Source: Cystobacterineae bacterium (lineage in GTDB: Bacteria; Myxococcota; Myxococcia; Myxococcales; Myxococcaceae). From it: DNA of 44,434 nucleotides. Numbering within the stretch: position 1 is the first letter of the stretch; every line of letters begins with the position of its first letter. The notes below the pieces were generated by a model. It was not told the origin of the DNA and searched no databases. It was given only the letters and a program-made list of their open reading frames with translations. Below are positions 14,555 to 19,227 of the stretch, piece after piece. Where the stretch lies: positions 1-44,434 of the forward strand of contig WRKR01000023.1 in assembly GCA_009782175.1 (NCBI GenBank), given 5' to 3'. The translations under genes and the position numbers were made by a program.

Positions 14555-14711
14555 CTTTTGAGGCGTGTACCCGCCCATTTGTACCTGCCCATATATGCCA
14601 CCCCCAAAGCACATGGCGTCTGGCTTTGGCGTCTTTTCCCTACACCCTGTGTTGGGATTGTGTTAAACAACCTGGGCTATTATGGCCGGAACCACGCAAG
14701 AAGAGTCCACA

Positions 14712-16460
14712 ATGAAACCCACTGGAAACATCAAACTCAATGTCTCAAAGGTAAATGTCTCAAAGGCAAATGCCTCAAAGGAATTTTCTGTGAAACGTTT
14801 TGCCCTGGGCACACTGTGTGTGTTGCTGGCGATGGCTTTGGGGGCCTGCTCTGAAGAGTCTTCTCCTTCTTCTCCTTCTTCTTCTTCTTCTCCAGGGGGA
14901 AGGGACAACACCATAGAGTGGGACGGTGAGGGCTTTCTAGTTATTTTTGACGAAAATGGTGGGGACACCCTGGCAAACCCGCAAGACAAAATAGTGCTGC
15001 AACCTGAAACAACCGTGGACGCTTTGCCTGAGCCCCCCACACGAGAGGGCCATAACTTTCTGGGGTGGAATATGGAAGAGGATGGGAGTGGAATGCCTTT
15101 CACCGCCAACACTCCAGTGAGTGAGAACCTCAGGGTTTATGCACAGTGGGAGCTTTCTTCTTCTTCAGGGCTCCCTCGGTTGAGTGTTTCCATTAACCCC
15201 AGTGCGGACATACTCACGCCTATGGTCAATGGTACTTATAGTGAGCGCTCCACCACCTTGGGTGTGGTGGTTTCAGGCTTTGCCAATGCTGCCGAGGCCA
15301 ACAACGCAAGGCTCAGCGTCAGTGTTACCAATGGCTTGTCCTTCACCGTTGAAAGCAACCCCTCGGGAAATGTTCAAAATTTCAGCGTTGTTGTGGAATA
15401 TAATGGCCAGACAGCATTTCCTTCAGGCGTGGCCACCTTCACCCTGAGCCTCATCCAGGTACCGGGCTATGAGCCTGAAAGCAGAACCACAAACGTCAAC
15501 ATCAGAGATGGCTTGGCTGCAGACAGTGCCATTCCGCTGGATAGGGGAAACATCCTCCATTTTAACAGCTATGCGAGGACGGCCGAGGGCCTGGCTAGGC
15601 ATTATAGGTTGACAGCAAATGTTAACCTCGACACCTCCTCCACAAACAACTGGACGGCCATAGGCACCGATACGGCCCCCTTTATGGGCAGCTTCAATGG
15701 CGACGGCCACACCCTCTATGGCCTTCGCATCAGCAACAGCAGCAACCACCAGGGCTTGTTTGGCTATATAGGCCAAGGTGCCTTGGTAGAAAACCTGGGG
15801 GTGACGGATGTGAACGTCTCCAGCTCCAACCAATATATCGGCGGCCTGGTGGGCTTTTCCAACGGCACGGTGCAAAACTGCTATGCCACGGGAGCTGTCA
15901 GCAGCACCCACTATAGCAGCCACGTCGGCGGCCTGGTGGGCAGCAACGGCACCGGCAGCCACGTGCAAAACAGCTATGCCACGACCACCGTCAGCGGCCG
16001 CAACTATGCCGGTGGCCTGGTGGGCTATAACAACGGCACCATAGAGCATGTCTATGCCACGGGAAGTATAGGCGGCACCCTCCATAGCTATGCCGGCGGC
16101 CTGGTGGGGGGAAACGACGGCACGCTGCGAAACAGCCTGGCGCTCAACCCAAGGATTGACAGTTCTTATTATGTCAGTGGCACCGCCTATTGCAGCACCA
16201 CCAACATTGGGCGTGTAGCGGGCAGCGCCGGCACCTTGTCCAGCAACGCTGCATATAGCGGCATGCTCAACTGCTTGGGCGCCATATGGACTTCAAACCT
16301 AGGCCCAGGCAGCATCCACGGCGAAAACAGGGCCTTTTCCGCTCTGCAAGTAGAAGGCGGCTTCCCAGAGGCATTGCGCACCACCCCGTGGACATATCAG
16401 GAAGGAAGGCTCCCCGGCCTCTTCGGGCAAACGGTGCTTATGCCTTCACATATACAGTGA
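14712..16460 (+). CDS. GLUG/InlB-repeat surface lipoprotein 1
   Basis: 582 residues. The signal is a lipoprotein type ending in LGAC, followed by a Ser/Pro-rich linker. Next comes one InlB-type (Listeria-Bacteroides) repeat, VIFDENGGDT to FLGWNMEEDGSG and RVYAQWE. A beta-sandwich-like region follows, then a beta-solenoid with about four GLUG repeats (GGLVGFSNGTVQNCYATG and similar) ending in ALNPRI. Such proteins are exported and often mediate surface binding; the ligand is unknown. ATG 14712 has AGAAGAG seven bases upstream; ATG 14682 lacks a site. The n-region of the signal peptide is unusually long because of a tandem repeat. A paralogue lies at 40.7-42.6 kb on the other strand. Confidence 0.85.
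   Translation: MKPTGNIKLNVSKVNVSKANASKEFSVKRFALGTLCVLLAMALGACSEESSPSSPSSSSSPGGRDNTIEWDGEGFLVIFDENGGDTLANPQDKIVLQPETTVDALPEPPTREGHNFLGWNMEEDGSGMPFTANTPVSENLRVYAQWELSSSSGLPRLSVSINPSADILTPMVNGTYSERSTTLGVVVSGFANAAEANNARLSVSVTNGLSFTVESNPSGNVQNFSVVVEYNGQTAFPSGVATFTLSLIQVPGYEPESRTTNVNIRDGLAADSAIPLDRGNILHFNSYARTAEGLARHYRLTANVNLDTSSTNNWTAIGTDTAPFMGSFNGDGHTLYGLRISNSSNHQGLFGYIGQGALVENLGVTDVNVSSSNQYIGGLVGFSNGTVQNCYATGAVSSTHYSSHVGGLVGSNGTGSHVQNSYATTTVSGRNYAGGLVGYNNGTIEHVYATGSIGGTLHSYAGGLVGGNDGTLRNSLALNPRIDSSYYVSGTAYCSTTNIGRVAGSAGTLSSNAAYSGMLNCLGAIWTSNLGPGSIHGENRAFSALQVEGGFPEALRTTPWTYQEGRLPGLFGQTVLMPSHIQ
14739..14783 (+). repeat. Three 15-bp units lengthening a signal peptide n-region
   Basis: AATGTCTCAAAGGTA, AATGTCTCAAAGGCA and AATGCCTCAAAGGAA in tandem, encoding NVSKV, NVSKA and NASKE just before the signal-peptide core. 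Each unit stays in frame and adds one lysine. Confidence 0.9.
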
Positions 16461-16554
16461 GGGTGTGTCAGTGAGGGTGTGTCAGTGAGGGTGTGTCAGT
16501 GAGGGTGTGTCAGTGAGGGTGTGTCAGTGAGGGTGTGTCAGTGAGGGTGTGTTT
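16457..16554 (+). repeat. Seven 14-bp tandem units starting at the stop codon
   Basis: Six perfect copies of GTGAGGGTGTGTCA (16457-16540) and a seventh that changes at its end (16541-16554). The TGA stop of the GLUG lipoprotein gene (16458-16460) is inside the first copy. Since 14 is not a multiple of 3, the TGA appears in all frames across the array. Confidence 0.95.
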
Positions 16555-16684
16555 TTGGCCCTGCCAGGCGGGGGTGCAGAGTGTTTTTTCGCCTGCACGG
16601 CGGGGCTAAAAAAGGTTTTTTTGTGAGAGGCGAGTTTAGGCTCGCCTCAAGTGAAACCGGTCTGGAGTTCAAACCAAAACCGGT
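16555..16684. other. Palindrome-rich gap between converging genes
   Basis: Holds a copy of the T-flanked GC element (16585-16623), a perfect 8-bp hairpin (GAGGCGAG 16627-16634 with CTCGCCTC 16641-16648), and AAACCGG (16654-16660) pairing with CCGGTTT (16680-16686), the last overlapping the stop of the next minus-strand gene. These probably terminate both converging transcripts. Confidence 0.5.
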
Positions 16685-17374
16685 TTAGCGCCTGTATTGC
16701 CTGGCTAAAGAAATAAAATTTCGAAAAATAAGCGCTTGGCATGGGACTGATTCCAGCAAAAACTCAGGGTTCCACCGCAGCCCCACAACTTTGCCCTTGC
16801 GCCCTTCTATGGCCTCCGTCGTCCCATCCAAAGCTTTGGCGGCAATGCTGGCGTGCTCATTGCCCAGCCAACACTCAGGCTTGTGCATGGAGTTAACCAT
16901 CAGCTGCCCCAAGCCTAAACACGCTTCCAACCAGCTTTCCTTCTGAAGGGCTATGGGGTGAAAAGGCTGAGTTTTTGTCAAAGTCTGCTGGTGCTCAAAC
17001 ACGGTTTCAGGTAGCCGCTTGTCCACCGTTATTCCCCAAAAAGAAGCCAAAAACTCACAAGCCCTCCCGCAAGCCAAAATGGGAAGCCCCTTTTTTATGG
17101 CCTGCTGCAACCCAAAATGCATCAGCATTTCACCACCTTTTCTCTCACCGCCTCCTTCATGCAGCCCGGAGAGCAACCACCCACTCACTCTCCCTAAAGT
17201 TGCCGCCATCAACTTCTCGTCATTAACCGGCGGCAACAACAAAGGGACGCCCCCTGCCTTCCAAATAGCACGCGCACATGCAGACAGCACTTCCTCCTCA
17301 GCGGAAAGCTCCGAAGAAAACAGGCCCGCTGAAACCATCAACATGGGTTTTTTTCCTCTATAACCCGCACTCAC
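16685..17374 (-). CDS. PuuD-like class I glutamine amidotransferase fold, catalytic residues lost
   Basis: 229 residues. It aligns with the peptidase C26 family (PuuD, gamma-glutamyl-GABA hydrolase): KKPMLMVSAGLFSSE start, AGGVPLLLPP, LPILACGRACEFL, VNSMHKPE and VVGLRWNPEFL. In PuuD the nucleophile block is ALCRG and the base block is WHPE. Here they read ACGRA and WNPE, so the nucleophile Cys is Gly and the catalytic His is Asn. It is probably not a hydrolase. GTG 17374 overlaps the thiE stop as GTGA, with AAAGG nine bases upstream; ATG 17344 with a GAGG upstream is an alternative. The overlap suggests co-translation with thiE. Confidence 0.7.
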   Translation of the reverse strand: MSAGYRGKKPMLMVSAGLFSSELSAEEEVLSACARAIWKAGGVPLLLPPVNDEKLMAATLGRVSGWLLSGLHEGGGERKGGEMLMHFGLQQAIKKGLPILACGRACEFLASFWGITVDKRLPETVFEHQQTLTKTQPFHPIALQKESWLEACLGLGQLMVNSMHKPECWLGNEHASIAAKALDGTTEAIEGRKGKVVGLRWNPEFLLESVPCQALIFRNFISLARQYRR

Positions 17375-18024
17375 GCGTATAGGGCCTTTGCAAATAATTG
17401 CCGCAATTTCAATGCCTCTTGCCCAGGATCCACCGCTTGCCATATGCCGGAAATGACAGCGGCGGCATGTACGCCCGTTCCGGCTATTTCAGCAATGTTG
17501 GAGGCCGAAATGCCGCCAATGGCTACCACAGGCAGAGGGCTGTGCTTCACCACTTGAGAAAGCGCCTCTATGCCCAAAGCAGCCATGGGCAAAAACTTGG
17601 TCTGCGTTCCAAAAACAGGGCCCAGCCCTACATAGTCTGCCCCCTCCTCCTTGGCCCGTTGCGCTTGCTCTATATTGCGAATGGTTTTTCCTATGAGTAT
17701 GCCTGAGCCCAAAAGCCCCCTGGCTATGGGTACAGGCATGTCTTCTTCACCCAAATGTATGCCCGGCGCCCATTTAAGCAGTGCCAGATCCGAGCGATCG
17801 TTCACAATGCACATGGCTCCTTGCCTCTCGCAACGCTCAACAACCTGTGCCGTCTGCTCCAAGGCATCGGCGTCTAAAGTCGCCTTTAGGCGCATTTGTA
17901 TGCACTTTATGCCGGCGGCCAACAGGGTGTCAAGCTGCTCTAGCACAGACAATTTCACATGGAGCGTATCCCCAACAAAAGCATAAATTCCTCTCGGAAG
18001 CTTTGCGGGGCTCTTGTCGTTCAT
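17371..18024 (-). CDS. thiE: Thiamine-phosphate synthase ThiE
   Basis: 217 residues, normal length. It joins HMP-diphosphate and thiazole phosphate to make thiamine phosphate in the cytoplasm. Motifs: CIQMRLK, CIVNDRSDLAL, GIHLGEEDMP (family GQED, here GEED), YVGLGPVFGTQTK, LPVVAIGGI and AAVISGIW. It is a TIM barrel. No other thiamine gene is nearby, and the 50-base gap to the divergent unit is too short for a TPP riboswitch. The ATG at 18024 lacks a strong ribosome site. Confidence 0.93.
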   Translation of the reverse strand: MNDKSPAKLPRGIYAFVGDTLHVKLSVLEQLDTLLAAGIKCIQMRLKATLDADALEQTAQVVERCERQGAMCIVNDRSDLALLKWAPGIHLGEEDMPVPIARGLLGSGILIGKTIRNIEQAQRAKEEGADYVGLGPVFGTQTKFLPMAALGIEALSQVVKHSPLPVVAIGGISASNIAEIAGTGVHAAAVISGIWQAVDPGQEALKLRQLFAKALYA

Positions 18025-18293: not shown

Positions 18294-18601
18294 GTCCACA
18301 AACAGGAAAGGGCTTCATCTGGCAAACGGCAACCACCTCCCTGGAAGCAGCAACCTTCTCCACTTTCATTCTGGGGCTCGCCTCCACCATCCTCGTCCAC
18401 TTGGGCGAAATGGAGGAGCCTCAAACCCAAAAAAGAGAAATTCAACTGCCTCTCGCAAGGCAATGCCTGGACTTTCTCGGCATCCTCTATGACAAAACCC
18501 AAGGGAACCTCAGCACAGAAGAGTCTCATTTGTTGCACCAAATATTGACTGATTTGCGCCTGCTTTATGTGCGCGTCCAGCAAAACCCCACACCACCGTG
18601 A
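18290..18601 (+). CDS. DUF1844 family protein
   Basis: 103 residues. The pattern ATFSTFILGLASTILVHLGE, then LPLARQCLDFLGILYDKTQG and LSTEESHLLHQILTDLRLLY, matches DUF1844, a short bacterial family without a known role. It is mostly helical, with a semi-hydrophobic first helix. It overlaps the upstream gene (ATGA) and the downstream gene (GTGA), so all three are likely translated as one unit. Confidence 0.85.
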   Translation: MSPQTGKGFIWQTATTSLEAATFSTFILGLASTILVHLGEMEEPQTQKREIQLPLARQCLDFLGILYDKTQGNLSTEESHLLHQILTDLRLLYVRVQQNPTPP

Positions 18602-19227
18602 GCTCCCCTCTGCCTTCACCTCTGCGCCTCATCAGCATAGGCGCCATGGGCTTGGCCGCCTTCGTCGTCCTCGCTTCCTGGTTGGATCTCCTGCAAAGCT
18701 TTTCACCTATCAACACTTCTGAAATACGCCACGTCGCCCTCCAACAGGAGTCCCTCTTTTCAAAGCTTTATAAAAAAGAAGCGCCTGTCTCCGCAGAAGC
18801 TCTCGTTTCTTTTTTTGAAGCTTATCAGTCCGGCCTTAACGAAATGCGTCTCCTGCGTGCCTTCATCCTGTTTGGCTTGTCCATATGTGCCACCTCGCTG
18901 TTTATGTCAGGCTGGCGCTTGGTGTTTAAAAGGGGGCCCCCACGGCCGCCAATGGCACGCAGGCTCTCGAAAATGGCATTGGCCTGCGCCATTTTCCGTA
19001 CATTGGATGGTGCTCAATCCGCAGCTCTGGCTCGACGCTCAGGTGCCGCATTTGATGCTCTCTTTAAAGCCAATGCTTCGCAAAGCATGGAAACAAGCCT
19101 GGCTACTTTCTCTGTTGTTTTTACGTTTTTTGTCGTCGCCCTCTTCTTGTGGATTTGGCGCTATTTCCAAGCCCCCAAAACCCTGGCCTCGCTGGAAACA
19201 CCTCCTTTGCCACCTCCTCCCACTTAA
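18598..19227 (+). CDS. Membrane protein of unknown function
   Basis: 209 residues with about three membrane helices: near 13-31 (ISIGAMGLAAFVVLASWL), near 83-105 (LRAFILFGLSICATSLFMSGW), and near 166-187 (ATFSVVFTFFVVALFLWIW). A soluble helical loop lies between the first two. Starts at GTG 18598, overlapping the DUF1844 stop. I recognise no family. It is 63 bases upstream of clpB. Confidence 0.7.
   Translation: MSSPLPSPLRLISIGAMGLAAFVVLASWLDLLQSFSPINTSEIRHVALQQESLFSKLYKKEAPVSAEALVSFFEAYQSGLNEMRLLRAFILFGLSICATSLFMSGWRLVFKRGPPRPPMARRLSKMALACAIFRTLDGAQSAALARRSGAAFDALFKANASQSMETSLATFSVVFTFFVVALFLWIWRYFQAPKTLASLETPPLPPPPT

Follow-up and report, generated by a model that had tools for sequence, protein, structure and literature searches.

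A putative Peptidase_C26 pseudoenzyme coupled to ThiE in one genus of Myxococcaceae

Introduction

What becomes of a glutamine amidotransferase (GATase)-fold protein that has lost its catalytic residues and yet stays translationally coupled to thiamine phosphate synthase? This question is raised by a gene that adjoins thiE in the window, by which we mean the whole stretch of 44,434 nucleotides that was analysed. The original prediction, made from the sequence alone, described a GATase fold that is non-catalytic and linked to thiE, with the nucleophile Cys changed to Gly, the His of the WHPE motif changed to Asn, the surrounding fold motifs kept and a four-base overlap with thiE. Peptidase_C26 proteins and pseudoenzymes are both already known kinds. 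In the literature searched, we found no description of a C26 or GATase protein linked to thiE, whether catalytic or dead; as coverage of that literature was partial, the absence is weak evidence of novelty.

Results

The C26 protein encoded next to thiE lacks the catalytic Cys and His

The sole Pfam match of the 229-aa open reading frame is PF07722, Peptidase_C26 (1e-19, 71.7 bits against a cut-off of 20.5), while its best NCBIfam match, the PuuD equivalog NF008471, reaches 25.7 bits, far below the cut-off of 266. The Myxococcus xanthus orthologue also falls under this equivalog cut-off, at 127 bits. The segment ILACGRACEFL aligns without gaps to VLGICGGMQLL, placing Gly103 at the position of the nucleophile Cys, and the alignment of GLRWNPE with GVQWHPE places Asn202 at that of the catalytic His, with the triad Glu204 kept (Table 1). 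Alignment, Pfam and the structural model described below all bear out the predicted substitutions and the retention of the GATase fold motifs. Changes extend beyond the dyad: the GGAFDIPPEAYGE loop is mostly deleted in the C26 proteins of the genus, and the HHQ motif has become H(K/R)P. By its profile score and its class I GATase fold the protein belongs to PF07722 as a sequence and fold family; of the residues that mark PF07722 as an enzyme family, the elbow Cys and the WHPE His are missing and the WHPE Glu is present, in three of three species. On these sequence grounds, the C26 protein of this genus probably has no hydrolase activity.

Table 1. Features of the thiE-C26 unit, with positions in the window
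Feature	Position	Strand	Details
Catalytically degenerate Peptidase_C26 / PuuD-type GATase gene	16685..17374	(-)	GTG start, 229 aa
Gly103 codon GGG, nucleophile-Cys position, motif ILACGRACEFL	17066..17068	(-)	
Asn202 codon AAC, catalytic-His position, motif GLRWNPEFLL	16769..16771	(-)	
Glu204 codon GAG, third triad member	16763..16765	(-)	retained in 50/50 sequences, alignment A2
thiE, thiamine phosphate synthase, active-site motifs kept	17371..18024	(-)	TIGR00693 173 bits, cut-off 145
GTGA, C26 start codon / thiE stop codon overlap, 4 bp	17371..17374	(-)	
Terminator-like stem-loop, directly 3' of the thiE-C26 unit	16657..16677	(-)	consensus match only

Both losses are common to one genus and absent from its sampled relatives

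The genus was sampled through three species (G000, G001 and G002), all of them draft genomes and at least two of them metagenome assemblies. The proposed search of related genomes for thiE neighbours with the same mutations turned up two further species that carry the same substitutions at 73-80% identity, so neither the Gly nor the Asn is a chance or private mutation. Both losses are common to all three species, within the motifs ILACG(R/K)ACEFL and RWNPEF. The sister assemblies are WQYA01 (Emb289P3bin65) and WQTM01 (Co191P4bin16); Emb289 denotes Embiratermes neotenicus and Co191 Cornitermes sp. (PMC7024585). These sources are termites and the sister genomes are thus those of termite-gut bacteria, from which we infer the same origin for the source genome. 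Genomes of the genus measure 2.1-2.7 Mb, and those of the other Myxococcaceae about 4-13 Mb.

Outside the genus, Cys and His are kept in 44 of 44 relatives (27 from the family and 17 from the wider order; loci L007-L033 and L114-L130), which were chosen by whole-protein search with no motif filter. Loci L036-L113 also keep both residues, but they are a biased sample, partly of the same genes, because the search patterns included CGGMQL. Canonical residues in orthologues had been set beforehand as the mark of a private mutation; the orthologues outside the genus do keep them, but those of all three species within it do not, so the losses are not private and the prediction survives this test. 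A C26 match at 1e-20 or better was present in 90 of 96 family genomes and 25 of 26 genera. Match values across these 96 genomes were split, with the genus below 1e-110 and the others at about 1e-21 to 1e-28, and no form intermediate between catalytic and dead was found among them. Given losses throughout the genus and intact residues in all 44 relatives, it appears that one genus converted an operon partner that looks catalytic across the order into a pseudoenzyme.

The link to thiE is older than the catalytic losses

We counted thiE linkage in 33 other genomes of the family and 24 other genomes of the order. In 24 of the 33, thiE lies directly upstream of C26 (within a few hundred bases); the remaining nine comprise two with about 1-1.5 kb between the genes, one contig-end fragment, five with thiE elsewhere and one without C26. 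The pair also occurs in 16 of the 24 other genomes of the order. The thiE-operon C26 genes of myxobacteria (e.g., M. xanthus, L063:5908-6669) are orthologues by synteny, with thiE upstream and stop and start codons often overlapping; they keep CGGMQ and QWHPE. The four-base overlap recurs across many genera and is GTGA or ATGA in all three species of the genus, where C26 adjoins thiE on the same strand as in the rest of the linked group; the overlap that was predicted is thus both real and widely conserved, and the prediction survives this second test as well.

A ThiD-like kinase gene often follows C26 on its 3' side (in M. xanthus PF08543, 8.5e-44, with a GTGC motif). None of the three species of the genus has this neighbour, common but not universal, next to C26, and in each of their genomes only the canonical ThiD scores above cut-off. 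In M. xanthus a convergent dnaB comes after the ThiD-like gene, and in two species of the genus it comes directly after C26, a layout which identifies the dead gene as the orthologue and indicates that the genus lost the ThiD-like gene from the interval between C26 and dnaB. The link between thiE and C26 is an old operon feature, not special to the dead form. The predicted tie of a non-catalytic GATase fold to thiE is therefore supported, but the association with thiamine was there while the enzyme still looked catalytic. The operon of thiE, C26 hydrolase and ThiD-like kinase is found in many Myxococcales across the order (M. xanthus locus L063:5231-7409), and no described role for its C26 or its second ThiD-like kinase was found in the literature searched.

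ThiC, ThiD, ThiG and ThiL are present in the genus, so thiamine synthesis is still used there. The ThiE of the source genome looks active: it passes the thiE equivalog cut-off (Table 1), and alignment to the B. subtilis enzyme, whose structure is solved, shows that it retains the R-x-K, ND, ED, TxTK and GGI motifs. A search of the window and of ten related loci for a TPP riboswitch on the operon found none.

The pseudoenzyme might serve ThiE as an allosteric or accessory subunit, binding it and changing its stability or activity. This is a specific version of the explanation that we prefer (see Discussion), and we regard it as possible while expecting it to be wrong. It fits the conservation of the overlap, both inside the genus and across many other genera, and that of the former active-site face, and dead paralogues that activate enzymes offer a precedent: prozyme of AdoMetDC is one such (PMC5201418), and PDX1.2 of vitamin B6 synthesis is a pseudoenzyme regulator of a metabolic enzyme (PMC6829848). 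Like the C26 protein of the genus, both are enzyme folds that are dead yet maintained by selection within a metabolic pathway; however, both act on an active paralogue, which the C26 protein would not do. The only other PF07722-like matches in the source genome are TrpG and CTP synthase, and hence no active C26 copy is left in it. Furthermore, C26 is not beside thiE in five Myxococcaceae genomes, in at least three of which it is kept beside the thiD-like gene, so its connection with ThiE is not necessarily a physical one.

The model places Gly103 at the nucleophile elbow

An AlphaFold2 model built from 50 sequences has a mean pLDDT of 89.1 and predicts an intact fold, with lin1909 (Z 24.8), SpuA (23.8) and PuuD (23.7) as the nearest solved structures. 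Strand 99-102 and helix 104-112 flank residue 103, which puts Gly103 on the nucleophile elbow, with Cys102 at the end of the strand and Cys106 inside the helix. These two cysteines, which the original prediction had thought worth noting, raise the alternative that the protein is still an enzyme, its mechanism changed to use Cys102, Cys106 or another conserved residue. Both are fixed in three of three species, and the corresponding positions are not Cys elsewhere. But with Gly103 at the elbow Cys102 and Cys106 probably do not act as relocated nucleophiles, the triad position is without His and the substrate loop is deleted; catalysis by them is unsupported, and we consider a changed mechanism improbable.

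The comparison with solved relatives is instructive for what such a pocket might do. PuuD, the gamma-glutamyl-GABA hydrolase of E. coli (6vtv), shares the fold (Z 23.7 over 222 residues), whereas the protein of the genus has neither the Cys nor the His, has had the substrate loop deleted and has thiE as its neighbour. SpuA of P. aeruginosa (7d4r; H221N mutants 7d50 and 7d53) likewise has the same fold (Z 23-24), and its laboratory H221N change is the natural His-to-Asn change of the genus; SpuA, however, keeps its Cys, and by PDB title the mutant was solved as a glutamyl-thioester, where the protein of the genus has Gly. Gamma-glutamyl hydrolase (GGH; 1l9x, 4l8f C108A, 4l8w H218N) has the same C26 fold at Z about 19 but is a eukaryotic folate enzyme and naturally catalytic. 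The two kinds of change made in these laboratory mutants, Cys loss and His-to-Asn, are combined naturally in the genus. SpuA H221N, like the H218N and C108A forms of zebrafish GGH, was solved with ligand bound according to the PDB titles, and so pockets of this kind can hold a ligand without turnover. With the GGAFDIPPEAYGE loop missing from the protein of the genus, any such ligand is probably something other than the former substrate.

A burst of change was followed by constraint

Within the genus, dN/dS (Nei-Gojobori, NG86, three species) was 0.09, 0.11 and 0.14 for C26 and 0.19-0.23 for thiE, values that are approximate because dS is near or above 1, close to saturation. In the closest pair to the source gene, changes were found at 58 of 450 first and second codon positions and at 96 of 225 third positions (Fisher p = 3e-17). 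On the stem branch of the genus, C26 accumulated 2.22 substitutions per site against 0.66 for ThiE (LG+G4, same 36 taxa), while tips within the genus span 0.02-0.29 for C26 and 0.18-0.30 for ThiE in LG+G4 trees. C26 of the genus thus went through a burst on the stem and then came under constraint, with purifying selection acting after the catalytic residues had been lost, as is expected of a pseudoenzyme.

Of the positions in C26, 71 are at least 90% invariant among the relatives; the genus retains the residue at 31 of them, has replaced it at 20, varies at 15 and lacks 5 through deletion. At each of the 20 replaced sites one new residue is fixed across all three species. The HHQ motif, the WHPE strand and the one-time elbow (G-x-C-G-G-M-Q-L) hold many of these sites, and the three segments belong to the best conserved parts of the protein inside the genus. 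Given such strong conservation, the protein has probably been put to a new, non-catalytic use and is not decaying.

Decay would mean a gene in a shrinking genome that has not yet been erased, and the small genomes and the lost thiD-like neighbour would suit it. Against this, the frame is open and full-length in three species, dN/dS is tighter than that of thiE and the altered site is conserved at the motif level, all of which makes decay very unlikely; three species and dN/dS together led us to reject a private mutation or a pseudogene. An assembly or sequencing artefact, to which metagenome assemblies might be prone, or a non-orthologous replacement is scarcely credible, given that the same changes occur in three separately assembled genomes and that the gene holds the same place by thiE, with convergent dnaB alongside in two species as in Myxococcus.

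Discussion

The explanation that we favour, and hold to be likely, is that in a termite-gut genus the thiamine-operon C26 protein lost catalysis in the ancestor and was re-specialised as a non-catalytic protein, probably one that binds a ligand or a partner, coupled to ThiE. The starting point would have been a C26 enzyme of the gamma-glutamyl-hydrolase type in the old myxobacterial thiamine operon (thiE - C26 - thiD-like), which, judging by its family, probably acted on a gamma-glutamyl compound or glutamine. In the genome-reduced genus this hydrolase may have become unnecessary, and catalysis would then have been lost in the ancestor of the genus, with Cys, His and substrate loop all gone. 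The protein would have stayed translationally coupled to ThiE, and the remodelled face of the former active site would most likely bind a small ligand or a protein partner. Such a protein would presumably have a binding or regulatory role in thiamine metabolism; ThiE itself or a metabolite of its pathway is our guess for the partner. A more ambitious proposal is that this GATase-fold pseudoenzyme is a dedicated regulator or ligand-binding subunit of thiamine phosphate synthase, or of its HMP/thiazole supply, born when a thiamine-operon gamma-glutamyl hydrolase lost catalysis; this we put forward only as a speculative idea that is unlikely as it stands.

That the genus has lost the ThiD-like gene and has no strong glutamine-synthetase-type ligase fits a hydrolase that became unnecessary, though in a single clade only. 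Glutamine synthetase (PF00120) gave one weak match in two of the three genus genomes and none in the third, against two strong genes in each of two comparison Myxococcaceae, a pattern that would fit loss of a gamma-glutamylation step, again in one clade. Perhaps only a GSIII-type enzyme remains in the genus. TenA was dropped as a clue to the substrate, since it is absent in the genus.

Two consequences follow from the comparison. A natural conversion of an enzyme to a pseudoenzyme has been dated and localised, with catalytic-looking orthologues in about 25 genera of the family and the dead form in one, at the same operon position. In addition, from the order-wide thiE - C26 hydrolase - thiD-like operon one would expect thiamine metabolism in myxobacteria to include a gamma-glutamyl (or glutaminase) step.

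Other features of the window

The place that dnaB holds in the two other species of the genus is occupied in the window by a 592-aa open reading frame (14682-16460, +) that bears a Listeria-Bacteroides repeat as well as GLUG motifs. A perfect tandem repeat of 14 bp in seven copies (CAGTGAGGGTGTGT, 16455-16552) lies at the 3' end of this convergent frame. A 209-aa open reading frame (18598-19227, +) that adjoins clpB is without a Pfam match.
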